Source: Phycisphaeraceae bacterium
GTDB lineage: Bacteria > Planctomycetota > Phycisphaerae > Phycisphaerales > Phycisphaeraceae
Reading direction: 5' to 3'
Assembly (NCBI GenBank): GCA_002686995.1
Contig: NYZC01000001.1
Location: 1 to 53,205, forward strand
Length of the DNA stretch: 53,205 nucleotides
Under the pieces are notes generated by a model. That model was given only the letters and a program-made list of their open reading frames with translations, ran no database searches and was not told the DNA's origin. This document shows, in pieces, positions 4,910 through 45,394 of this stretch. Position numbers and translations under genes: made by a program. Within the stretch, counting starts at the first letter, position 1; each line of letters begins with the position of its first letter.

Positions 4910-4930
4910 TTGTCAATTGTCAATTGTTGT
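4910..4930. repeat. Short period-7 array, TTGTCAA type, at a stop codon
   Basis: Three 7-base units (TTGTCAA, TTGTCAA, TTGTTGT) overlap the last codons and stop of the haloperoxidase gene, which therefore ends ETTIDN. The unit differs from the CTACTCG and GTCGAAR arrays elsewhere, but the period and the position at a gene end are the same. Confidence 0.6.
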
Positions 4931-6904
4931 TTCGGGGCGCTTCGGATGTCGGCGCCGCGCTGCGATGACGAGCGTGACGAGGCAGAGTCCGGTGGCGGGT
5001 TCGGGCACGAAGTGGGTCTGCGCCTGCGCCCATGCGTCCAGGCCGATCCGGGCGCCCATGATGCGGCCTGCGAAGTCATCGGGCGCGACGTGGATGCCTC
5101 CGAACAGGCGCGAAATGCCTGCTTCGTCGGCGGCATCACGATACGTGGCCCATTGCAGCGTCAGGTCGTCGGCGGGGCCGAGCTCGAACTCGAGGAAGTC
5201 CTCGGCGGGAAAGAAGTATTCGCCGAGCCCGCCCGGGAAATACGGATCGCCGGTGATCTCCGTGAGCACTTCGGCGGCCGCGCGGCTGAACGTGCTGTGG
5301 CCGGAGACGTACGCGGCGAACGCGGGCGTCACGAACGTCGAACGCTGGTACGGCCACCATTCGACCGCGCGGATCCATCGCGTGCCCGCGACCTCGTCCT
5401 CGGGCACCTCGCCTTCGCCTGACCAGGCGAAGATCGCGACTTCGCCTTCGAAGCCGGCGAGATGCTCGTGGCGACCGTCGGTCACCGTCGTTTCCGTGGT
5501 GATCAGCTCGATCAGGCCGGGCACCAGGGGCAGGCCGTTCGGGTGCCAGGTCGCGACGTCGCCCGGGTCGCTGGATTGCCCCAGGCCGCCCATGTGCCGG
5601 ATCATCGAAATGGGGCGGACGTAGTCGTAGGCGCGCTTCGATCCCCACGCGGCGATCGCGGCGTCGTGCACCGCGCCGCCGACGGCGAGGTAGACCTTGA
5701 CGTCCCATTGCAGGTCGCTCACCACCGGGCCGGCGCCGCCGATCCGCTTGACGATGTCAGGGTGATCCGCGACGTCGTTGGCGAGCGCGAACCAGTGGCC
5801 GGGCGGCGTTTCGGACTCGGGGCCGTCGGCCCAGAACTCGGCCATGACCCGGCCGTAGTCGGCGAGATGAACGAGCTGCGGCACGTAGGGCTGACCGGTC
5901 GACGGATTGACGGCGTGCCCCTGGTCGGCGTGCGTGCCCAGGGCCCGATTGCCGAGCGATGCGGGCGAGATGTCGATCATCATGCTCGCGCCGGCGGCCA
6001 GGCCGACGGTGCCGAAGTCGAAGGGGACGCTGACCAGCGCCGGGTCGAGTACGGCGCTGTGTCGGATCACGCTGACCAAGTTTGATCGGAATTCCGCGTC
6101 GCCCGCGCCGCCGAGCTGAGGCGGAGGGCCCGGATCCGTCGCGGTCCACGGATCCTGCCCCGGCGCGGGCCGCAGCGCGAACGGCGTCACGTGACCCCAG
6201 TTCGGGCTGACGAACGTCTGCACCAGGTCCGCCTCCAGACCGTTCTGCGTGATCCGTGTCGCGAAGGCCAGCGGTTGCCAGTGATTGGGTGCGTCGAGCG
6301 TCGTATCCGTCTCGCCCGTGAACTCGAGGAGCATCGGGTCGTTCAGCGGCGCGTAGTTGGTGTTGTCCTGGTAGCCGACGATCTCGTTGGAGCCGTCGTG
6401 GATCGTTTCCGCAAGCACCCGGGCGGCGATCCGGTTGCCGATCGCCGCGGGACTGTTGCCAGTCGTGATCGTGATGCCCGGATCGTAGCCGAGCGCGCCC
6501 ATGAGCCCGTCGAAGATCGCCTGCGAGGCGATGGGATCGATGGCCCGCGTGTATCGTTGAGAAAGCACGCGGTACGCGGCGTAACTGATCGCTTCGTCGC
6601 GGTCTGCGGCGAGGTCCGCGGGACTCAACGTCTTGTCGGTGTAGAACACGCCCTGGGCGCTGTCGTCAAACGACGCCCACGCGTCCCACATCGCCGCGGA
6701 CGAGTGATAGAGGTTGCGGGCGTGCACCGTCGGCGCAGGGAAATCCAGTCGAATCGCGTCGAGCAGTGCGTCGTTCCATTGCCGCGCGACGGACGTCTGC
6801 GCGCCGGCGGGACAGGTGAGCAGCAGCGCGAGCAGGAAAACGCACGACGCGAATCGCCGGGGCGGAAATTCGCCGACTCCACGGTCCGACCGCGACGTCA
6901 TCAT
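4913..6904 (-). CDS. Vanadium-dependent haloperoxidase (PAP2 fold) with PEP-CTERM anchor
   Basis: A 663-residue secreted enzyme (662 from the second ATG at 6901, which has GAGG five bases upstream). A signal peptide is clear: basic FPPRRFAS, hydrophobic CVFLLALLLTC, then PAGAQT. All three motifs of the vanadate/phosphatase site are present near the C-terminus: KRAYDYVRP at about 421 (K-x6-RP), SGHSTF at about 533, and SRLFGGIHVAPD at about 597 (SR-x5-H-x3-D). The family oxidises halides with hydrogen peroxide or acts as an acid phosphatase. The end VPEPATGLCLVTLVIAARRR is a PEP-CTERM signal (PEP, hydrophobic segment, arginines), so the enzyme is probably sorted by an exosortase and held at the cell surface. 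The exosortase gene is not in this window. Eleven residues follow the arginine cluster, longer than usual, the last from a period-7 repeat. Confidence 0.9.
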   Translation of the reverse strand: MMTSRSDRGVGEFPPRRFASCVFLLALLLTCPAGAQTSVARQWNDALLDAIRLDFPAPTVHARNLYHSSAAMWDAWASFDDSAQGVFYTDKTLSPADLAADRDEAISYAAYRVLSQRYTRAIDPIASQAIFDGLMGALGYDPGITITTGNSPAAIGNRIAARVLAETIHDGSNEIVGYQDNTNYAPLNDPMLLEFTGETDTTLDAPNHWQPLAFATRITQNGLEADLVQTFVSPNWGHVTPFALRPAPGQDPWTATDPGPPPQLGGAGDAEFRSNLVSVIRHSAVLDPALVSVPFDFGTVGLAAGASMMIDISPASLGNRALGTHADQGHAVNPSTGQPYVPQLVHLADYGRVMAEFWADGPESETPPGHWFALANDVADHPDIVKRIGGAGPVVSDLQWDVKVYLAVGGAVHDAAIAAWGSKRAYDYVRPISMIRHMGGLGQSSDPGDVATWHPNGLPLVPGLIELITTETTVTDGRHEHLAGFEGEVAIFAWSGEGEVPEDEVAGTRWIRAVEWWPYQRSTFVTPAFAAYVSGHSTFSRAAAEVLTEITGDPYFPGGLGEYFFPAEDFLEFELGPADDLTLQWATYRDAADEAGISRLFGGIHVAPDDFAGRIMGARIGLDAWAQAQTHFVPEPATGLCLVTLVIAARRRHPKRPETTIDN

Positions 6905-6985
6905 GTCCTCAATCTCCGTGTCCTGTCGCCTGAAGTCGCCCGTGATCGCTGTTTCGATCGTATGCCCGCGACGTCCGAAGTCAAT

Positions 6986-7259
6986 GTTCGGCGCGATGGC
7001 GATCCGGACGCCGGCCGCCGCGGCCACGTCGCCGGCGCGGCGCAGCCGGCCCCACACCTTCGCGCGGTGCGTGTCGCCAGCCGACACGCTGACGAAAAGG
7101 ATGCGCGCACCGAATCGGCGGCAGGCCTGCACCTGCGGCATGATGCGCGACGGAGGATCGTCGTCGCCGACATCGCACTTGCCCATGAACGAGGGCGACG
7201 ACGAGGCGGCCGATCTCCGCGCGCGCCTCGACGAGAGCGGCCTCTGAGGAGAGAGTCGA
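6986..7259 (-). pseudogene. Possible frameshifted relic of a sugar phosphate isomerase/epimerase
   Basis: The 671-bp gap upstream of the haloperoxidase contains minus-strand text resembling a xylose-isomerase-like barrel, split over two frames. SSEAALVEARAEIGRLVVAL reads from about 7259 to 7190. After a frame change near 7180, CRRFGARILFVSVSAGD and AGDVAAAAGVRIAIAPN read down to 6986. Strand 'GARILFVSVSAGD' followed by helix 'AAAAGVRIAIA' is the pattern of that fold. There is no intact start or metal-binding C-terminus. The call rests on pattern recognition by eye. The rest of the gap (7260-7440) shows nothing clear. Confidence 0.35.
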
Positions 7260-7453
7260 GGAGTCCGGGAGCCTGATCGTGCTGCGGACCACCGCGGCGG
7301 CCGGATTGTAGGCTGCGGGCCTGACCGGCGGCCGATCCCGGCTGTTTTCCGGGTCATTTGCCCCAGTCCCGGCTTAATTCTCGATTTCGATAGAAATATT
7401 TGCGAATTAGGGGGATTCCCGGATGGATCAAGCCCGCGCGACGGTATGATCTT

Positions 7454-7575: not shown

Positions 7576-8610
7576 ATGACATTCCGATTGTCGGTCGTGG
7601 TTGCGGTGGCGGTCGCAGGCGTTTTGGGCGCGGGGTCACCGGCGTTGGCGATGCTGAACCTCGATGACTACTCGCTCAACTTCATTCATGCCGCGGAGGC
7701 GGATGAGCCGGGCAACACGCTCGGGCTGTCGAATCCGGGCGGCATCGACGAATGGCGCATGCTCATTCACTCGGTGGTCGTGTTCGACAACACGGGCGGG
7801 CCCGTGGCCGGTTCGACCTTTACCGACTATTTCGCGATCTCCGTCGATCGATTCGTTGACCGGATCGGCGGCGCCATCGTGACGCCGGGATACGGCAGCC
7901 TGGCGGCCGGCGCCGGGGTCACGCCGACGCACGAAGTCACCATCGTGGGCAAGCTGACCGGCACGACGCTCTCCGTGGCGACCGGCGGAGGCGGAGCCGG
8001 TGTCTCGATCCTCGACGTGGCGCCGGCGGTTGCCGACTACCGCGTCATCTTTGACGCGGCTTCCGACACATCGGGGACCGACTTCACGCTTGCCAGCACC
8101 TTGGCGTGGAACTCGTTCGACGACGGAGCGGTGGTCGAGAAGATCGACTCCCTGAGCTTCGGTCAGATCATTCAGACCGGCGTGGCCCTGCCGACGTTGT
8201 TCGATGGCGCATTCGACGCGAGGGGGCCGATCACGGACGTGCTGTCGACCCTGGGCAGCTTCGGTGAGTTCGAATTCGATTACCGGGACGCGAACGGCGA
8301 GCTGATCGACATGGCCAACACCATCGACATGGTGTCCCACACCGTCGACGGCAATTTCACTCTGGACGGGGTGCCCGCCGGGATCTTCGGTTCGAACGGC
8401 CAGGGCGAGGCCGAGATCGACAGTTTCCTCGGCGCGCTGTTCGGCGAGGACTACGATCCTACGACACAGTCGGCGTTCGGCTTTCGCAGTGACGCCTCCC
8501 TCAACAAGGATGGCGAGCCCGTGCCCGAGCCCCTGACGTCCGGTCTCGCGGCCGTCGCATTGGGCCTGCTCGCGGGGTATGTCGGGCGTCGTCGTCCGGT
8601 GGATCTGTAA
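7576..8610 (+). CDS. PEP-CTERM sorting domain protein (paralogue 1)
   Basis: A 344-residue exported protein with ribosome site GAGGAGG. The signal peptide is RLSVVVAVAVAGVLGAGSPALA, cleaved after ALA. The mature part is rich in beta-strand-like, Gly/Thr/Asp-rich sequence without cysteines or recognisable catalytic motifs. The C-terminus PEPLTSGLAAVALGLLAGYV followed by GRRRPVDL is a PEP-CTERM signal, so it is probably anchored or released at the cell surface after exosortase processing. It is closely similar over its whole length to the protein encoded 322 bp downstream (shared TLGLSNP, EWRMLIH, VVVFDNTGGP, TDYFAISVDR, DPTTQSAFGFRSDASLNKD). It lies divergently from the PEP-CTERM haloperoxidase. 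Role unknown: matrix or surface-layer component is the simplest guess. Confidence 0.85.
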   Translation: MTFRLSVVVAVAVAGVLGAGSPALAMLNLDDYSLNFIHAAEADEPGNTLGLSNPGGIDEWRMLIHSVVVFDNTGGPVAGSTFTDYFAISVDRFVDRIGGAIVTPGYGSLAAGAGVTPTHEVTIVGKLTGTTLSVATGGGGAGVSILDVAPAVADYRVIFDAASDTSGTDFTLASTLAWNSFDDGAVVEKIDSLSFGQIIQTGVALPTLFDGAFDARGPITDVLSTLGSFGEFEFDYRDANGELIDMANTIDMVSHTVDGNFTLDGVPAGIFGSNGQGEAEIDSFLGALFGEDYDPTTQSAFGFRSDASLNKDGEPVPEPLTSGLAAVALGLLAGYVGRRRPVDL

Positions 8611-8932: not shown

Positions 8933-9964
8933 ATGACCGGTCGAGTATTTCTTGTCGTGGCGCTGGCGTTCTGTGTTGTCGGCGCGGTGTCACCGGCGCC
9001 GGCACAACTGATCAACCTTAACGACTACACGCTCAACTTCGTGGATGCCGCGGAGGCGGACGCGCCGGGCAACACGCTGGGGCTGTCCAATCCGACCGGC
9101 GTCGACGAGTGGCGCATGCTCATCCATTTGGTGGTCGTGTTCGACAACACGGGCGGACCCATGGTCGGCGCGACCTTCACCGACTATTTCGCGATCTCGG
9201 TCGACCGGCTGGTCGACGACATCTCGCAGTCCGTGGTCACGCCCGGCATGGGCACGCTGGCCGCGGCGGCCGGCGTCACGCCGACGCATGAACTGACGAT
9301 CGTCGGCAAGTTCACCGGCCGAGCCCTGTCCGTGGCGGGCGGCGGCTCGTCGGGCCTGTCGTTGCTCGACATCGAGCCGACTGCAGCCGACTATCGGGTG
9401 ATCTTCGACGCGGCGTCCGACGGTACGGGGGCGGGTTACACGCTGAGCACGACGACCGATTGGAGTTCGTTCGACGACGGCACGGTCGTCGAACAGATCA
9501 ACGCGTTGAGCTTCGGGAAGATCGTTCAGACGTCGGTGACGCTGCCCACGATGTTCGACGGCGCCTTCGACGCGAAGGGGCCGATCGTCGACGTGCTCTC
9601 CTCGCTCGGAAGCTTCGACGCGTTCGAGCTGGACTACCTCGACGAGAACGGTGACCTGATCGACGAGACGGGGCTCGAGATCTCGCACACGGTCGACGGC
9701 AACTTCACGCTCGACGGCGTGCCCTCGGGCATCTTCGGAGCGAACGGTCAGGGCGAGACGGAAATCGACGACTTCCTCGGCGCGCTGTTCAGCGTCGATT
9801 ACGACCCGACCACCCAGTCGGCGTTCGGGTTCCGCAGTGACGCGTCGCTCAACAAGGACGCCCTTACGGCGACGGTCGTGCCCGAGCCGCTCACGTCCGG
9901 CCTGATCGCGGTCGCGCTCGGCGTGCTCGGGGCGTACGTGGGACGTCGTCCTGTCGCAGCCTGA
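8933..9964 (+). CDS. PEP-CTERM sorting domain protein (paralogue 2)
   Basis: A 343-residue exported protein, tandem duplicate of the preceding gene. Ribosome site GAGGAGG is 6 bases before ATG. The signal peptide runs through VFLVVALAFCVVGAVSPAPA to a cleavage site near AQL. The mature region keeps nearly every conserved block of paralogue 1 (LNDYTLNFVDAAEAD, FDNTGGPM, HTVDGNFTLDGVPSGIFG, GFRSDASLNKD). It ends PEPLTSGLIAVALGVLGAYV and GRRPVAA, a PEP-CTERM signal with two arginines instead of three. The separate leader and the shared 14-bp element suggest each copy has its own promoter. Function unknown. Confidence 0.85.
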   Translation: MTGRVFLVVALAFCVVGAVSPAPAQLINLNDYTLNFVDAAEADAPGNTLGLSNPTGVDEWRMLIHLVVVFDNTGGPMVGATFTDYFAISVDRLVDDISQSVVTPGMGTLAAAAGVTPTHELTIVGKFTGRALSVAGGGSSGLSLLDIEPTAADYRVIFDAASDGTGAGYTLSTTTDWSSFDDGTVVEQINALSFGKIVQTSVTLPTMFDGAFDAKGPIVDVLSSLGSFDAFELDYLDENGDLIDETGLEISHTVDGNFTLDGVPSGIFGANGQGETEIDDFLGALFSVDYDPTTQSAFGFRSDASLNKDALTATVVPEPLTSGLIAVALGVLGAYVGRRPVAA

Positions 9965-9987: not shown

Positions 9988-11055
9988 TCACCGGGAGGGG
10001 GATGCTGCGCGCTGCTGCAGCCAGCGCTTGAGCCACGGGATCGCCTCGACGCCGTGCCAGCGGTGCGGTCCGTGAAACACGCGGTGCTTCAGCGCGCCGG
10101 TCGCGTCGCACAGCCTGTAGGCGCGGCGGGTGATGCGGACCTGGCTCTTGACGTTTCGCAGGTTGTCGCGTCCGTTGAGATTGTCCTCGTCGCCGGTCTC
10201 GATCATCAGCGGGCGCGGCGCGATGAGGGCGCCGATGTCACCCATGTCCACGTGCTCGTAGAGATTCGGGACGAAGTTGCATGAGCAGTTCGTGTACTGC
10301 TCGAGCAGTGACTGCTTGTATCCATAGAAATACCCGCTGATGACCGCGCACCGAATGCGGCGGTCCAGCGCGGTCGCCCACAGCGTCTGCAGGCCGCCGC
10401 CGGAGAGCCCGGCGCATCCCAGGCGCTTCGCGTCGCAGTCGGGGCGCGTCTCGATGTAGTCGATCAGCCGATGCAGATCCCACGTCCACATGCCGGTCAC
10501 CGTCTGGCCGAGGGGGTAGGCCATGTGGTTGATCCACTGGCACGAGCTGTTCAGGATGTCCACGTTCGACGGAAACTCCTGGCGCTCGCCGAATCCCCGG
10601 GCGTCCGGACAGAACACCGCGAAGCCCTCGCGGACCAGCTGCACGCCGTAGTCGTAGTTGTGTTCCCTGATCGTTTTCGCAATGGCCCGGCGCGTTCGAA
10701 TGCCCGCGACGGCGAGCTTGCCGCCGCTGGCGTGGCCGTGCGGCGCGATGACTGGCGCGAATCGTTGGCCGCTTTCGGGCAGGAGCACGTACAGGGGCAT
10801 CCTGACATGAGGCTCGGTCTGGATCTCGACGCGCTGTCGGACGTAACCGTCGCACCGGATCTGCTCGGTGATCTTCGGCCGCAGCGGCGTCGGCACCATC
10901 GTGTCGTAACCAGTCAGCGATTTCAGCTTGCGTACCAGGGCGCGTCGCCATCGCTGCAACTCAGCCGCACTCGCGGCATCGAAGGCCATGGTTCTTCCGA
11001 CGTGGTCGAAGCGCCGACTCATCGCGGGAAGCACGGAGAAGGGTGGAGTATTCAT
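9988..11055 (-). CDS. Alpha/beta hydrolase (acetyl xylan esterase / dienelactone hydrolase-like)
   Basis: A 355-residue serine hydrolase without a signal peptide. The nucleophile elbow is CAGLSGGGLQTLW (Ser in GLSGG). The acid is likely Asp in MIETGDEDNLNG and the histidine is in HGPHRWHGVEA near the end, in the right order for the fold. The region APVIAPHGHASGG before the elbow is an oxyanion-hole strand, and the chain resembles the family that holds acetyl xylan esterases and large carbohydrate esterases. It faces the PEP-CTERM paralogue tail to tail with 23 bases between. A short leader of 131 bases separates it from the divergent PhyH gene. The substrate is probably an acylated sugar or small ester; this is inferred from fold and setting only. 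Confidence 0.8.
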   Translation of the reverse strand: MNTPPFSVLPAMSRRFDHVGRTMAFDAASAAELQRWRRALVRKLKSLTGYDTMVPTPLRPKITEQIRCDGYVRQRVEIQTEPHVRMPLYVLLPESGQRFAPVIAPHGHASGGKLAVAGIRTRRAIAKTIREHNYDYGVQLVREGFAVFCPDARGFGERQEFPSNVDILNSSCQWINHMAYPLGQTVTGMWTWDLHRLIDYIETRPDCDAKRLGCAGLSGGGLQTLWATALDRRIRCAVISGYFYGYKQSLLEQYTNCSCNFVPNLYEHVDMGDIGALIAPRPLMIETGDEDNLNGRDNLRNVKSQVRITRRAYRLCDATGALKHRVFHGPHRWHGVEAIPWLKRWLQQRAASPSR

Positions 11056-11186
11056 GGGGCGACAGTGTAGTGGACGCGGGCGTCGGAGCTCTGACTTGTC
11101 GTCGTCGTGACGAGATGCTACAGATGCGTCGATCGAATGAATCGACGAAAGGTGCAGACGAAAGGTGCAGTGGATCGGAGCGAACG

Positions 11187-11960
11187 ATGACGGTGGAACT
11201 GACGGCGGACCAGGTCAAGGCGCTCGACGACGACGGGTTTGTGCGCGTCGACAAAGTGCTGACGCCTGAGCAGGTGGAGCGGTACGCAGAGCTATACGAG
11301 GCCTTTCTTTCCGGTGCGATCTCGACCGGGCACCTGCGCGGCGACCTCGGCGGGCACGTGGACGACGAGGCGGAGATGGACGCACCGGAGCACATCACGC
11401 AGATCATGTGGCCGAGCGCCTGCGTGCCCGTGCTGCACGACGCGCCGTTGCACGTGCAGTCGCTGGCCATGGCGCAGCAGTATTCTGGCGACGACATGAC
11501 GTTCGATTTCGACATGCTGATCGACAAGCTGCCCCACACCGACACGTCCACGCCCTGGCACCAGGACATGGCGTACTGGATCAAGCTTCCCGACATCCGG
11601 TCGCTGAGCGTGTGGACTGCGCTGGACGAGGCGACGGTCGACAACGGCTGCATGTGGTACGTCCCGGGCGCCCATCGCAAGCCGATGCGCCGACACTGGG
11701 AAGCCGGCAAGGGCGGCGGCGCGCTCGAATGCGAAGCGAAGGAAGAGGAGGGTGTGCCGGTACCGCTTCCGCCGGGCAGCGCCGTGCTGCATGTCGGTGC
11801 CGCGCTGCACTACTCGCGCGGCAACACGACCGAATCGCGCCGCCGCGCCTTCATCATCAACTGCCGCCCGAAGACGATGGTCGACCTCGAGCGCAGCGAA
11901 GGCATGGACCACGGCCTGACGGAAAACGTCAGAAAGGTCCGCAACGAGGGCGAGGCGTAG
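11187..11960 (+). CDS. Phytanoyl-CoA dioxygenase (PhyH) family protein, copy 1
   Basis: A 257-residue Fe(II)/2-oxoglutarate-dependent oxygenase, expected to hydroxylate a small molecule using O2 and 2-oxoglutarate. The frame is open upstream, but ATG 11187 is chosen because GGAG lies seven bases before it and the protein then starts with the usual LTADQVKALDDDGFVRVDKV helix-strand. Metal ligands are visible: His125-x-Asp127 (PWHQDMAYW) and distal His208 (ALHYSRGN), followed by arginines at about 218-220 that would bind 2-oxoglutarate. The LSVWTALDEATVDNGCMWYVPGAHR block is characteristic of PhyH/ectoine-hydroxylase-like enzymes. Substrate not predictable. A period-7 array starts seven bases after the stop. 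Confidence 0.9.
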   Translation: MTVELTADQVKALDDDGFVRVDKVLTPEQVERYAELYEAFLSGAISTGHLRGDLGGHVDDEAEMDAPEHITQIMWPSACVPVLHDAPLHVQSLAMAQQYSGDDMTFDFDMLIDKLPHTDTSTPWHQDMAYWIKLPDIRSLSVWTALDEATVDNGCMWYVPGAHRKPMRRHWEAGKGGGALECEAKEEEGVPVPLPPGSAVLHVGAALHYSRGNTTESRRRAFIINCRPKTMVDLERSEGMDHGLTENVRKVRNEGEA

Positions 11961-11966
11961 GGATGG

Positions 11967-12060
11967 GTCGAAGGTTGGAAAGTCGAAAGTCGAAAGTCGA
12001 AGGTCGAAAGTCGAAAGTCGAAGGTCGAAAGTCGAAAGTCGAAAGTCGGAAGTCGGAAGG
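11967..12060. repeat. Period-7 array, GTCGAAR type
   Basis: About 13 tandem 7-base units, mostly GTCGAAA and GTCGAAG, drifting to GTCGGAA at the right end. It starts seven bases past the PhyH stop and is on the sense strand of that gene. A second array of the same unit in opposite orientation lies at 12224-12270. The 163 bases between them show no gene. Confidence 0.9.
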
Positions 12061-12223: not shown

Positions 12224-12270
12224 TCGACCTTCGACCTTCGACCTTCGACCTTCGACTTCCGACTTGCGAC
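12224..12270. repeat. Period-7 array, inverted relative to 11967-12060
   Basis: Six to seven units reading CGACCTT/CGACTTC on the plus strand. Seen from the minus strand this is GTCGAAG and starts six bases after the stop of the minus-strand glycosidase gene. Together with the 12.0-kb array it forms a pair of arms capable of a long stem, placed exactly between two converging genes. Confidence 0.85.
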
Positions 12271-12276
12271 CGTCCG

Positions 12277-16049: not shown

Positions 16050-16781
16050 TCACGCGCTGCGACGGCGCAGGAGCATGAGTCCGCCGAGACCCAGCAGGGC
16101 CATCGAGGCCGGCTCGGGGATGATCACGGCGTCGATGATGAAGTCGCGGAAGGTTGCGGCAAGCAGGACCTCACCGATGTTGGCCGGGCCCGCGGTCCCG
16201 CCGTTGATCACCGGGCTCGTCTGGCCGTCAATGCTCACCGTGAAGGTGTTGGCGTTCAGGTCGTAGTCGACGGCCCACTCCTGCCACTGCTCCGGGATGA
16301 TGGCAATGCCCGTGTCCGTGCCGTTGGCATCGGCGTGGGTGCTGGTCACGCGGTTCCAGGAAACGCCCGCGCGATTTTCGCCTGGCCCATCGGTCCGAAG
16401 GGCGATGGTGCCGCCGATGGCATCCGTATGGTTGGAGACCATCCAGGCCATCCACTCGGCCCTGACGGTACCGCCGACCAGCTGGCCGATGTTCCGCAGA
16501 AGGTTGCCGTTTGCGCAGCAGTTGTTGCCCATGTAGAGGTACTTGTCGCCTTCAATGGCCGGAGCGCCGTGGATCGTCGAAACGGTCGTATCCCACACCC
16601 AGGTTTCAGAGGCCGCGGCCCCGCCCTGCGCCCAGCCGGGAGGAAAGTTCTGGTGCGTGCCGCCTTCCCAGTCCTCGCGGAAGACGGAAGTGCCGTTGTG
16701 GAACACCTCGATCGCGAATGCCGAGTTGATGCAGACCACCAGTGCGATTGCCGCCATCAGACCAGTCGTGAAACGCGTCAT
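16050..16781 (-). CDS. PEP-CTERM protein with lectin-like (jelly-roll) domain
   Basis: A 243-residue exported protein with a strong ribosome site (AGGAGAT). Signal peptide [22 protein letters not shown] is cleaved before IEVFHNG. The mature region, with [34 protein letters not shown]-like strands and [16 protein letters not shown], has the look of a concanavalin A-like/LamG jelly roll, often carbohydrate-binding. It ends [23 protein letters not shown], a textbook PEP-CTERM signal. A good sigma-70 promoter lies upstream. Probably a surface glycan-binding protein, inferred from fold appearance only. Confidence 0.8.
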
Positions 16782-17043: not shown

Positions 17044-17886
17044 TCAGCCCCGCGAGGGCTCCGGGCGGCTCTCCCGGGCCTGTCGCGACAGTTCGGCGAG
17101 GTGGCCGTCGTTCGCCATCACCTGCTCGAGGTGCCGCCGCCGCGCTGGTCCGGCGGTCTCGACCATGGCGGGGCCGTAGGCACGGTCGATCCAGAATCGC
17201 GCCGCCCTGGCGATGTAGTCCCGCAGGTCCTGCAGGCGCTCTTCGGGGTACCGCTCGCAGAGGTTGATGGTGAACATGCGGCGGCGCTGCCCGCCCCCGA
17301 ACGCGGCGTGCTTCGCATTGTGGTTGAAGCAGACGACGTCGCCGGGCTGCGTCTCGAGCGCCATCGCGGGCACTTCGCTGCCGTGCACGCCCCAGCGATT
17401 CTCCGTCATCGCCAGGTCCGTCTTCAACCCCTCGGCGTAGCCCTCGCCGATGCGATGGCTGCCGGGGATGACGCGCAGCGCCCCGGTGTCCGTCGTGAGC
17501 GGATCGAGGTAGAACGCGATCTTCACGTGGTGCATCTCGGGATGCCACCCGTCCGAATGCCAACCGGTGTCGCCGACGTAGTAATTGCCGTCGCTGCCCA
17601 TGTAGTTAAAGTCGTCGCCGAGCAGGCTCGACGCGATGCCGGCGATGCGCGAGTCGTCAAGCAGGGCGCTCAGCGTCGCGCTCTGGTCGATGAACGGCAC
17701 GATGCACGAGCGCTGCTTGCCGTCGTGCGGCCGACCGTCGTGCCCGCCACCGCGCTCGCGCCAGACCGCTTCGAACGCGTCCACGATCTCATCGATACGG
17801 TCGGCCACCAGGCCGGGGAACGCGAGATAACCGAACGTTTCGTAGAAGGCGATCTGCTCGGGGCTGAGCGGGATGGGTTCGGACAT
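17044..17886 (-). CDS. Phytanoyl-CoA dioxygenase (PhyH) family protein, copy 2
   Basis: A 280-residue Fe(II)/2-oxoglutarate oxygenase with ribosome site AAGGAG. It starts with the usual LSPEQIAFYETFGYLAFPGLV helix-strand. Metal ligands: His110-x-Asp112 (GWHSDGWHP) and distal His193 (NHNAKHAAF), with Arg around 201-203 for 2-oxoglutarate. The core RVIPGSHRIG is conserved. The C-terminal 60 residues form an extra charged helical tail (ERLQDLRDYIARAARFWIDR). The gene is enclosed by a perfect 25-bp inverted repeat, so it could have moved as a unit or simply sit between two copies of a common intergenic repeat. Substrate unknown. Confidence 0.9.
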   Translation of the reverse strand: MSEPIPLSPEQIAFYETFGYLAFPGLVADRIDEIVDAFEAVWRERGGGHDGRPHDGKQRSCIVPFIDQSATLSALLDDSRIAGIASSLLGDDFNYMGSDGNYYVGDTGWHSDGWHPEMHHVKIAFYLDPLTTDTGALRVIPGSHRIGEGYAEGLKTDLAMTENRWGVHGSEVPAMALETQPGDVVCFNHNAKHAAFGGGQRRRMFTINLCERYPEERLQDLRDYIARAARFWIDRAYGPAMVETAGPARRRHLEQVMANDGHLAELSRQARESRPEPSRG

Positions 17887-36754: not shown

Positions 36755-38203
36755 ATGAAGCTCTTCACCGCGCTGCTCGGCACCGAGACGAACACGTTCT
36801 CGCCATTCGTCACCGGGAACCAGAACTTCGAGCGAACGCTGCTGGTCCGGGCCGGCGCACACGGCGACGTTCCGTCGATGTTCGCCGTGCCGCTGGTGGT
36901 GTGGCGGCAGCGCGCTCGGGAGCGCGGGTGGCAGGTGGTCGAGAGTCTCGCCACGTTCGCGACGCCGGCAGGCGTGACGCGCCGTGACGTTCACGAGGCC
37001 TACCGTGAAGAGATTCTTTCGGACCTTCGGGCGGCGATGCCGGTCGACGCGGTCATGCTCAACCTGCACGGCGCCATGGTCGCGGACGGCTGCGACGATT
37101 GCGAGGGCGATCTGCTTGCCCGCGTGCGGGAGATCGTGGGGCCCGGGGTGCCGGTCGGCGCCGAGCTGGATCTGCACTGTCACCTGACCGAGATGATGGT
37201 CCGTCACGCGGACGCGCTGGTCATGTTCAAGGAGTACCCGCACACGGATTTCGCGGAGCGCGCCGGGGAGCTGTTCGAGATCGTCGCCGATACGGTCGAG
37301 GGTCGCGTGCGTCCGACGATGGCGTTGCACGACTGCGAAATGATCGGAGTCTTTCACACGACGCGCGAGCCGATGCGCGGTTTCGTCGACGGCATGACGG
37401 ACCTGGAAGGGTGCGACGGCGTGCTCTCGGTTTCGCTGGCTCACGGCTTTCCGTGGGGTGACGTCGAGGAGATGGGGGCGAGGATGCTCGTCGTGACCGA
37501 CGATCGCGCCGAGGCGGCGGCGGCGCTCGCGCGGTCTCTTGGCGAGAAACTGTACGCGCTGCGCGATCGTCTGCAGCCGGACTACCTGTCGATTGACGAG
37601 GGGATCGACCGGGCGCTGGCCAGTCCGCGAGGGCCGGTCGTGCTCGCCGACGTCTCGGACAACTCAGGCGGGGGCGCCCCCAACGATTCGACGTTCATCC
37701 TGCGGCGGATGCTCGAGCGCGGTGTCGAGCGAGCGGCGATTGCCTGTATCTGGGACCCGATCGCGGTGACGGTCGCGGCCGAAGCGGGAAAGGGAGCGCA
37801 GATTGCGCTGCGGCTCGGCGGCAAGATGGGACCGATGTCGGGCGATCCGCTCGACGTGACCGCGAAGGTGGCGAGCGTGACGTCCGACGGCGTGCAGTAC
37901 TGCGCGGGCGCGCCGTTTTCGCTCGGTGACGCGGCCGCCCTGCGCGTGGACGGCGTCGATGTCGTCGTCAACTCGATTCGCTGCCAGACGTTCAGCCCCG
38001 ACGCGTTCACGTCACTGGGGATCGACGTTGCGGACCGGCAGATCCTCGTCGTCAAGTCGATGCAGCATTTCCACGCCGGCTTCGCCCCGATCGCAGCCGA
38101 CATCCTCTACGTCGCCGCCCCCGGCGCCACGATGCCGCACTTCGACCAGTTTGAATACCAGCACATCAACCCCCGTCTCTGGCCCCTCGAGAGCGAAGCC
38201 TGA
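36755..38203 (+). CDS. M81-family metallohydrolase (MlrC-like), copy 1
   Basis: A 482-residue protein of the MlrC (microcystinase C) family, in which MlrC cleaves the linear peptide products of microcystin. Family landmarks: LLGTETNTFSP near the start, VDAVMLNLHGAMVADG, PVGAELDLHCHLTEMMV (acid and histidine ligands), MFKEYPHTDFAERA, and FHTTREPMRGFVDGM. The C-terminal half carries LADVSDNSGGGAPNDSTFILR, the conserved MlrC C-terminal start. It directly follows the radical SAM gene, and a paralogue is encoded at 43-44.6 kb. Substrate unknown; other neighbours do not suggest microcystin breakdown as such. Confidence 0.85.
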   Translation: MKLFTALLGTETNTFSPFVTGNQNFERTLLVRAGAHGDVPSMFAVPLVVWRQRARERGWQVVESLATFATPAGVTRRDVHEAYREEILSDLRAAMPVDAVMLNLHGAMVADGCDDCEGDLLARVREIVGPGVPVGAELDLHCHLTEMMVRHADALVMFKEYPHTDFAERAGELFEIVADTVEGRVRPTMALHDCEMIGVFHTTREPMRGFVDGMTDLEGCDGVLSVSLAHGFPWGDVEEMGARMLVVTDDRAEAAAALARSLGEKLYALRDRLQPDYLSIDEGIDRALASPRGPVVLADVSDNSGGGAPNDSTFILRRMLERGVERAAIACIWDPIAVTVAAEAGKGAQIALRLGGKMGPMSGDPLDVTAKVASVTSDGVQYCAGAPFSLGDAAALRVDGVDVVVNSIRCQTFSPDAFTSLGIDVADRQILVVKSMQHFHAGFAPIAADILYVAAPGATMPHFDQFEYQHINPRLWPLESEA

Positions 38204-39166: not shown

Positions 39167-39379
39167 CGACCTAAGCGTAGCCGGGAGTAAGACGAAGGGA
39201 CAGATGACGAGAGCGGCCATTCCTGCCCGCCGTGATGACCTGGTGCGTCGCCGACGGGCTCGGCGGGAACGGGACAGGAATTGACGACGACGCAGGCAGG
39301 CAGGACGATCAGAGCCCGGGCGGGAACGACGTCCCGTTTCCGGGCCGCCGGGAGTTTCGATAGAGCCGGAGCGCCACTG

Positions 39380-40297
39380 ATGTCTGAATCAGCCGAGACC
39401 CGAAGCATCGACGTTCCGCGCATCCTCGAGCCGGATCAGGTCCGGGCCTACCTGGACGACGGTTATCTCGTCGTACCGAACCTCGTCGACCCGGACGAAC
39501 TGGACGAGCTCAAGCGCGACATCGTGAAGGTCGCCAGGGGCGGGTACCCGGCCGAGTCCAACATGAAGTCGGTGCCCGCGACCCTGACTGATGCCGAAGT
39601 GCTCGAAACGGTGCTGTGCATTCACCAGCCGCACTTCATCAGCCCGGTCATCGAGAAGTACGTGCGCCATCCGAGAATCTGCGGCGTTCTGTCACAGATC
39701 GCGGCGGCCCATCTGCCCTGGTGGGACGGCAGCGTCAAGTGCATGCAGTCGATGTTCTTCGTCAAGCCGCCGGGGTTCCAGGGGCAGGGCTGGCACCAGG
39801 ACGAGGTGTACATCCCGACGCGCGACCGCTCGCTCGTCGGGGCGTGGATCGCGATCGACGACGCGACCGTCGAGAACGGCTGCCTGTGGGTGCTGCCGGG
39901 ATCGCATCGGGACGGGTACTTGCACCGGATGCGGCAACACGACAACGACGATGAGTTCGACGGCGCCGAGGAAGCTTTCGGCTTCGACGAAACGAGTGAG
40001 ATCCCGGTCGAGGTGAAGGCGGGCACGCTCGTGTTCTTCAACGGGTACCTGCTGCACCGATCGCGCCGCAACCGCAGCGACATCTACCGCCGCGTCCTCG
40101 TCAACCACTACATGAACGCGTGGTCGCTGCTGCCCTGGCACCCTGGTGACGATCCGCCCGCCCGCGCGGATGAGCGAGCGATCATCCACGTTGCCGGCGT
40201 CGATCCGTACGCGTGGAAAGGCTTCGGGCAGCCGCAGCGCCGAATCTACTCGCGAATGTGCAAGGCGAACGAGGAGTCGCTCGAGGAGAACCGCTGA
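39380..40297 (+). CDS. Phytanoyl-CoA dioxygenase (PhyH) family protein, copy 5
   Basis: A 305-residue member starting ILEPDQVRAYLDDGYLVVPNLVDPDELDELK after an N-terminal extension of about 14 residues. The ATG at 39380 has GGAG nine bases upstream. Ligands: His139-x-Asp141 (GWHQDEVYIP) and His226 (YLLHRSRRN), with Arg237 for 2-oxoglutarate. DATVENGCLWVLPGSHRDGYLH is the conserved turn. WWDGSVKCMQSMFFVKPPGFQGQGWHQD is close to ectoine-hydroxylase-like sequences. A possible promoter TTGACG-17-GACGAT lies at 39278-39306. The divergent layout with copy 4 suggests joint regulation of two related but distinct oxygenases. Confidence 0.9.
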   Translation: MSESAETRSIDVPRILEPDQVRAYLDDGYLVVPNLVDPDELDELKRDIVKVARGGYPAESNMKSVPATLTDAEVLETVLCIHQPHFISPVIEKYVRHPRICGVLSQIAAAHLPWWDGSVKCMQSMFFVKPPGFQGQGWHQDEVYIPTRDRSLVGAWIAIDDATVENGCLWVLPGSHRDGYLHRMRQHDNDDEFDGAEEAFGFDETSEIPVEVKAGTLVFFNGYLLHRSRRNRSDIYRRVLVNHYMNAWSLLPWHPGDDPPARADERAIIHVAGVDPYAWKGFGQPQRRIYSRMCKANEESLEENR

Positions 40298-45294: not shown

Positions 45295-45301
45295 GTAAAA
45301 G

Positions 45302-45394
45302 GTCGAAGGTCGAAGGTCGGAGGTCGGAGGTCGGAGGTCCGAGGTCGGAGGTCGGAGGTCGAAGGTCGAAGGTCGAAGGTTGAAGGTCGGAGGA
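45302..45394. repeat. Period-7 array, GTCGAAG/GTCGGAG type
   Basis: About 13 tandem units, GTCGAAG at both ends and GTCGGAG in the middle, with single variants GTCCGAG and GTTGAAG. It lies in the 154-bp gap between the RraA gene and the stop of the threonine-synthase-like gene, both on the minus strand. The block pattern of variants suggests spread by slippage or conversion. Confidence 0.9.

Follow-up and report, generated by a model that had tools for sequence, protein, structure and literature searches.

The window, by which we mean the whole 53,205-nucleotide stretch of contig NYZC01000001.1 from a Phycisphaeraceae bacterium (assembly GCA_002686995.1), contains an open frame for a predicted exported protein of the vanadium haloperoxidase family (Table 1). 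The start codon is the ATG at 6904 or 6901. Upstream of it the frame stays open to an ATG at 7357, giving the 814-residue ORF that is listed by the program. A start near 6904 was preferred because of the onset of family conservation and the position of the hydrophobic segment, and a start at 7357 was disfavoured because the signal peptide would then sit internally. The N-terminus (RRFASCVFLLALLLTCPAGAQ-T) combines a basic stretch, a hydrophobic core (CVFLLALLLTC) and AGAQ; by eye it is signal-peptide-like, in keeping with the signal peptide proposed in an earlier note on this DNA, and export is probable. Residues 1–16 have low pLDDT in the AlphaFold model. The upstream open frame (6905-7357, minus strand; GARILFVSVSAGDTHRAKVWGRLRRAGDVAAAAGVRIAIAPN) resembles, by eye, part of a sugar-phosphate isomerase of the TIM-barrel type and is perhaps a gene remnant.

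Table 1. Features of the window, in positions of the whole stretch.
Feature	Position	Strand	Evidence or remark
Whole gene, 663 aa	4913..6904	(-)	Exported vanadium haloperoxidase-family protein (predicted); open frame
Signal-peptide-like N-terminus, residues 1-37	6794..6904	(-)	Read from sequence by eye
DUF6851 match, residues 70-211	6272..6697	(-)	Pfam PF21167, 65.2 bits
Motif 1, residues 423-430 (K..R), W420 just before	5615..5638	(-)	Invariant, 54/54
Motif 2, residues 529-536 (F...SGH)	5297..5320	(-)	F529, S534, G535, H536 invariant, 54/54
Motif 3, residues 598-609 (SRLFGGIHVAPD)	5078..5113	(-)	S598, R599, G603, H605, D609 invariant, 54/54
PEP-CTERM-like tail, residues 633-663 (VPEPATGLCLVTLVIAARRRHPKRPETTIDN)	4916..5008	(-)	Pfam PF07589, 13.3 bits, sub-threshold
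Two tandem PEP-CTERM proteins	7576-8610, 8933-9964	(+)	Pfam PEP-CTERM, 21.6, 18.6 bits
Third PEP-CTERM protein of the window	16050-16781	(-)	20.8 bits, cut-off 20.7
Three 7-base tandem repeat arrays	11978-12059, 12224-12271, 45299-45393		About 12, 7, 14 copies
M81/MlrC-type metallopeptidase	36755-38203	(+)	PF07364, 285 bits; PF07171, 192 bits
Three phytanoyl-CoA dioxygenase-family (PhyH) genes	11043-11960, 17044-17886, 39281-40297		

The tandem PEP-CTERM proteins are about 72% identical to each other, and the Pfam scan returned no other convincing domain in them. The metallopeptidase belongs to the family of the microcystin-degrading MlrC. The 7-base repeat arrays show 90-93% matches, and two of them lie directly after a PhyH gene. 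When 12 other window genes were compared with ten related loci, several of them short, using tblastn at 1e-8, no match was obtained and only the haloperoxidase was recovered; conserved gene neighbourhood was therefore ruled out as a clue to function, and the neighbourhood gives no hint of the purpose of the oxidant.

All three active-site motifs occur in the one protein, as the earlier note had read from the letters: motif 1 is K423-RAYDYV-R430-P, motif 2 is V-S534-G535-H536 and motif 3 is S598-R599-LFGGI-H605-VAP-D609. The seven vanadate-site residues (in order K423, R430, S534, G535, H536, R599 and H605) are unchanged in 16 of 16 and in 54 of 54 aligned sequences, query included, so the motifs are not due to chance; W420, F529 and D609 are likewise invariant across the 54. 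The alignment for structure work used 53 of the 57 checked stretches from the best 80 loci, the four with an internal stop being excluded. On profile coordinates, with 23 columns on each side, F529 and H536 correspond to residues 397 and 404 of the Curvularia chloroperoxidase, while W420, K423 and R430 correspond to its residues 350, 353 and 360 in a one-gap match counted from the C-terminal end; the Curvularia rows are weak in both motif sub-searches (E ≥ 0.34), and the full family profile gives 2.5e-5. F397 of the chloroperoxidase is a suspected halide acceptor, according to a figure legend (PMC10427571).

The F529 position also bears on halide preference. Phe is found there in both the Zobellia iodoperoxidase (by alignment) and the fungal chloroperoxidase (by profile coordinates). 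In the algal bromoperoxidases 1qi9 and 1qhb this place is taken, on profile coordinates, by residues 411 and 478, both presumably His. The position therefore appears chloroperoxidase- or iodoperoxidase-like, not algal-bromoperoxidase-like, and since Phe is shared by chloroperoxidase and iodoperoxidase, the halide is not readable from it. A bromoperoxidase is unsupported by sequence, and bromide, the halide that the earlier note proposed to test, is thus not favoured.

The C-terminal tail (VPEPATGLCLVTLVIAARRRHPKR) runs from Pro-Glu-Pro through a hydrophobic stretch to an Arg/Lys cluster, the same three-part anatomy as that given for PEP-CTERM proteins in PMC1569441; the AlphaFold model places a helix at 638-650 with low confidence. 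Against the Pfam PEP-CTERM profile the tail scored 13.3 bits (17.3 in a genome-wide search) at a cut-off of 20.7, the NCBIfam PEP-CTERM profile TIGR02595 gave zero match to it, and the NCBIfam profile scan of the haloperoxidase was likewise empty. Because it falls below the curated cut-offs, we class the tail as PEP-CTERM-like only. A PEP-tail pattern, devised after the tail had been seen, was found in 50 of 200,000 shuffled versions of it and in 4 of the window's 332 stop-to-stop frames that are 80 aa or longer, namely the haloperoxidase and its three PEP-CTERM neighbours.

Relatives give a mixed picture of the tail. A paralogue on contig C250 of the same genome is 73% identical and ends VPEPSGLCIALLMAGLGSIRIRT, and PEP is kept in this paralogue and in five further relatives. 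The nearest orthologue among the matches listed (L034, from a Phycisphaeraceae bacterium) is 72% identical and carries the tail VPTPATGLCLTLLAGLGVLRRPKRQL, with VPTPATGLC; this natural Glu-to-Thr change tells against a strictly kept PEP in the clade. The tails of the haloperoxidase, its paralogue and L034 all fall short of the PEP-CTERM cut-offs. Among the eight tree members labelled PEP, the haloperoxidase here and L006 are sub-threshold in Pfam; L035 and L074 pass at 22.8 and 24.1 bits; Pfam gave no PEP-CTERM match for L004, L005, L034 or L037, of which L037 reaches 14.5 bits for TIGR02595 (cut-off 16). L012 passes the IPTL-CTERM profile (27.7 bits, cut-off 20.5). Furthermore, Gly-Leu-Cys follows shortly past PEP or PTP in the three closest tails (window positions 4982-5008 on the minus strand, L004 and L034), which read VPEPATGLC, VPEPSGLC and, in L034, the PTP form given above. 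In these tails the membrane stretch begins with this Cys, which might be relevant to processing. A more distant haloperoxidase-like protein outside the main family (L031, G319:C92) ends VVPAPAGGALAALALLVGVRRRR, an exosortase-type tail.

The source genome (G000; 7.8 Mb in 446 contigs, 87.6% complete, 5.5% contamination), probably a metagenome assembly judging from these statistics, encodes two exosortases, which the earlier note had proposed looking for; they score 169 and 152.4 bits, both over the Pfam cut-off (PF09721), and both retain the catalytic motifs CxG, NxxR and HxxxG. Of 222 PEP-CTERM candidates in this genome 150 were scored as hits, of which, by our count, 104 exceed the cut-off outright and 8 more reach it with neighbours. 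By comparison, 14 control genomes contained no PEP-CTERM match over the cut-off. An exosortase (PF09721) is present in 28 of the 33 genomes bearing a family member: all eight with PEP-, PTP- or IPTL-type tails, all 18 with a dockerin-like-tailed member, and two of the seven whose member has another domain or no tail. As proof of sorting this co-occurrence was set aside as weak, given the 18 of 18 dockerin-like-tailed genomes. It fits exosortase sorting, yet does not separate PEP from dockerin-like tails, since exosortases are common in these orders.

Taken together, the three-part anatomy, the paralogue and the exosortases favour the PEP-CTERM tail claimed previously, while the Pfam and NCBIfam results do not, and we consider it probable, from sequence comparison, that the haloperoxidase carries a PEP-CTERM cell-surface sorting tag. 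A rather unlikely alternative is that the tail only anchors the C-terminus in the membrane, or is a sorting signal in decay, leaving the enzyme in the inner membrane or periplasm. The sub-threshold scores, the replacement of PEP by PTP in L034 and the unusual Gly-Leu-Cys of the nearest tails all point that way; against it stand the retention of PEP in the paralogue and five further relatives, the two relatives that clear the Pfam cut-off, and a genome that encodes exosortases together with over 100 strong PEP-CTERM tails. A sorting tag on this protein would be atypical, since under 10% of PEP-CTERM proteins have a match to a Pfam family (PMC1569441) and this is an enzyme of known fold.

The fold was assessed with an AlphaFold model (mean pLDDT 89.1, pTM 0.88, core mostly >90). 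The earlier note had named a collapsed vanadate site and a genome lacking any exosortase as grounds for refutation. Neither was borne out, for the genome has two exosortases and, in the model, the core is confidently ordered and overlays solved haloperoxidases. When the 54-sequence family profile was searched against the PDB, 12 of 12 rows at E ≤ 10 were vanadium haloperoxidases or their homologue NapH3, and none was an acid phosphatase. Foldseek ranks 1-29 were again haloperoxidases or NapH3, with acid phosphatases from rank 30 (E 0.016). VIA-align of model residues 36-634 gave Z 34.1 to NapH1 (3w35) over 434 residues at rmsd 2.2, with Z of 34.0 for XhnO11, 33.3 for NapH3, 29.8 for the Zobellia iodoperoxidase and about 23 for the Curvularia chloroperoxidase. 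Within Pfam, DUF6851 and the VCPO_2nd domain bearing all three motifs (42.2 bits) both lie above their cut-off of 27. From the PDB profile matches, the model and the Foldseek and VIA-align matches, the protein is assigned to the two-bundle vanadium haloperoxidase fold family, with the bacterial NapH/iodoperoxidase branch as its nearest predicted relatives. Fold, active-site residues and Pfam profiles thus agree on the identity proposed at the outset.

Membership of this family leaves room for a halide-free or substrate-specific reaction like that of NapH3, in which hypohalous acid would not be released. NapH3, whose structure title refers to a rearrangement, ranks with the best structural matches, and substrate-specific bacterial enzymes of such a kind have been described (PMC8407142). 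We nevertheless regard this reading as unlikely: in the alignment the motif-2 His is replaced by Phe in NapH3, whereas H536 is invariant here, so the protein is not of NapH3's altered type, and no biosynthetic cluster was recognised among the scanned window genes.

The pocket residues of vanadium haloperoxidases are common to class A acid phosphatases and PAP2 proteins, and the signature K-x6-RP, SGH, SRx5Hx3D also occurs in class A acid phosphatases. That the protein is instead an acid phosphatase or phosphotransferase, exported and working through this shared pocket, is improbable; the idea was rejected as the main reading on fold and profile evidence while being kept as a rival. In its favour, acid phosphatases align with the C-terminal half, though with that half only (Z about 12.7 over about 200 residues), and Pfam PAP2 reaches 18.7 bits, below its cut-off of 27.2. 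Against it are the two-bundle match to NapH1, the PDB profile search, the two Pfam domains above cut-off and the invariant W420 and F529, which fall on chloroperoxidase residues 350 and 397. The earlier note had left haloperoxidase and phosphatase chemistry side by side; fold and the residues shared with chloro- and iodoperoxidases favour the former, on the model and the alignments.

The family is large. Matches at E ≤ 1e-10 were found in 30 of 392 planctomycete genomes (17 of them at E < 1e-50), and at least 588 members were confirmed from the 593 candidates listed in a one-genome-per-species bacterial and archaeal collection. Going by record title, the best 80 loci fall in at least ten phyla (Planctomycetota, Verrucomicrobiota, Chloroflexota, Actinomycetota, Myxococcota, Pseudomonadota, Acidobacteriota, Bacteroidota, Spirochaetota and others), most records being metagenome assemblies, so that single phylum labels may err. 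L093, L061, L067 and L110 sit in far longer open frames, of 1,272 to 1,835 aa, and these add extra N- or C-terminal stretches.

Automatic labelling of the tails of 94 non-redundant members gave none (37), other domain (28), dockerin-like (16), PEP-CTERM (7) and other membrane-plus-basic tail (6); duplicates L039 (the L005 sequence) and L082 were left out of this set, as were L090 and L112, whose truncated frames lack motif 3. 'Dockerin-like' is a loose label, since Dockerin_1 exceeded the Pfam cut-off in one of the nine such rows scanned (L016), was weaker in six, and was unmatched in L015 and in L009, whose label was given by eye. Before tree construction five labels were changed by hand (L034 to PEP, L009 and L101 to dockerin-like, L096 to other membrane tail, L046 to none) and the fragment L020 was excluded, leaving 93 of the 94 rows. 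On the resulting quick tree, with SH-aLRT support only, the five tail labels required at least 18 changes, compared with about 48 on average for shuffled labels, and the PEP label 2 changes, compared with about 8. L035 (PEP) pairs with L038 (dockerin-like) as its sister at support 100, within a group of five, also with support 100, that includes the haloperoxidase here, L034 and L004. Judged by these counts, tails follow lineage yet change repeatedly.

Our best explanation, held with a probability of roughly 0.6, is an exported NapH/iodoperoxidase-like enzyme that binds vanadate at H605, oxidises halide with hydrogen peroxide and is sorted by an exosortase to the outer surface or polysaccharide layer. 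The fold, residues, tail and exosortase genes are its computationally supported part. We infer vanadate binding, halide oxidation, tail processing and final location, as follows. The protein would leave the cytoplasm by export and hold vanadate through H605, and hydrogen peroxide would drive the conversion of halide to hypohalous acid outside the cytoplasm. After secretion, the PEP-CTERM-like tail would lodge in the inner membrane until one of the two exosortases cuts it and hands the enzyme on, to end up in the polysaccharide layer or on the outer surface. The oxidant might serve to ward off competitors, destroy signals, clear peroxide or modify phenolics; defence, signal destruction and algal phenolics were the uses that the earlier note had put forward. 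Since the core of the enzyme persists in relatives whose tails differ, the tail makes most sense as an address label, specific to the lineage, on an enzyme that is generally extracellular.

A broader reading, which we offer tentatively as somewhat short of even odds, is that a large uncharacterised exported clade across at least ten phyla swaps its tags (PEP-CTERM, IPTL-CTERM, dockerin-like and others) and so sites hypohalous-acid chemistry by lineage. The same oxidant generator would then be attached to exopolysaccharide or to other surface scaffolds, or be set free. If true, the small number of characterised bacterial enzymes would understate how widely uncultured bacteria oxidise halides with vanadium enzymes, and planctomycete halide oxidation may be surface-sorted and could shape biofilms and organohalogen formation. 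Natural tail swaps on a conserved core, as in the sisters L035 and L038, offer a route to the effects of exosortase tails, with an easy colour assay. In the openly accessible literature searched, no paper combined a vanadium haloperoxidase with PEP-CTERM or dockerin, joined exosortase and haloperoxidase, or dealt with DUF6851; three papers mention both planctomycetes and vanadium-dependent haloperoxidase, each term once, and haloperoxidase and halogenase are absent from the main text of a 2025 review of planctomycete metabolism (PMC12078418).

Compared with known systems, the enzyme is of a familiar kind, while its setting is unusual and has been little studied. The Streptomyces vanadium chloroperoxidase NapH1 (3w35/3w36) shares the two-bundle fold, the K-x6-RP motif and the W three residues ahead of the motif-1 K, at 24% identity; NapH1 works in antibiotic biosynthesis (PMC8407142), and unlike it the protein here begins with a signal-peptide-like segment and ends in a sorting-type tail. 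The Zobellia vanadium iodoperoxidase (4cit/4usz) is the best match to the motif 2-3 region (E 2.3e-11), the motif-2 stretches pairing as TPPFPEYTSGH / TPAFAAYVSGH, but is a 458-aa chain with 23% identity. The Curvularia vanadium chloroperoxidase (1vnc/1idq) shares the Phe and Trp positions (F529 = F397, W420 = W350) and is recovered by the family profile, but is fungal and 19% identical. Class A acid phosphatases and PAP2 proteins (PhoN, PhoC, 1d2t) resemble the C-terminal half, but their chains of about 220 residues have no counterpart to the first bundle. Lastly, PEP-CTERM/exosortase sorting (PF07589, TIGR02595; PF09721) is matched by the tail anatomy, the exosortases of the genome and its many PEP-CTERM proteins, and differs in that the haloperoxidase tail lies under the curated cut-offs.
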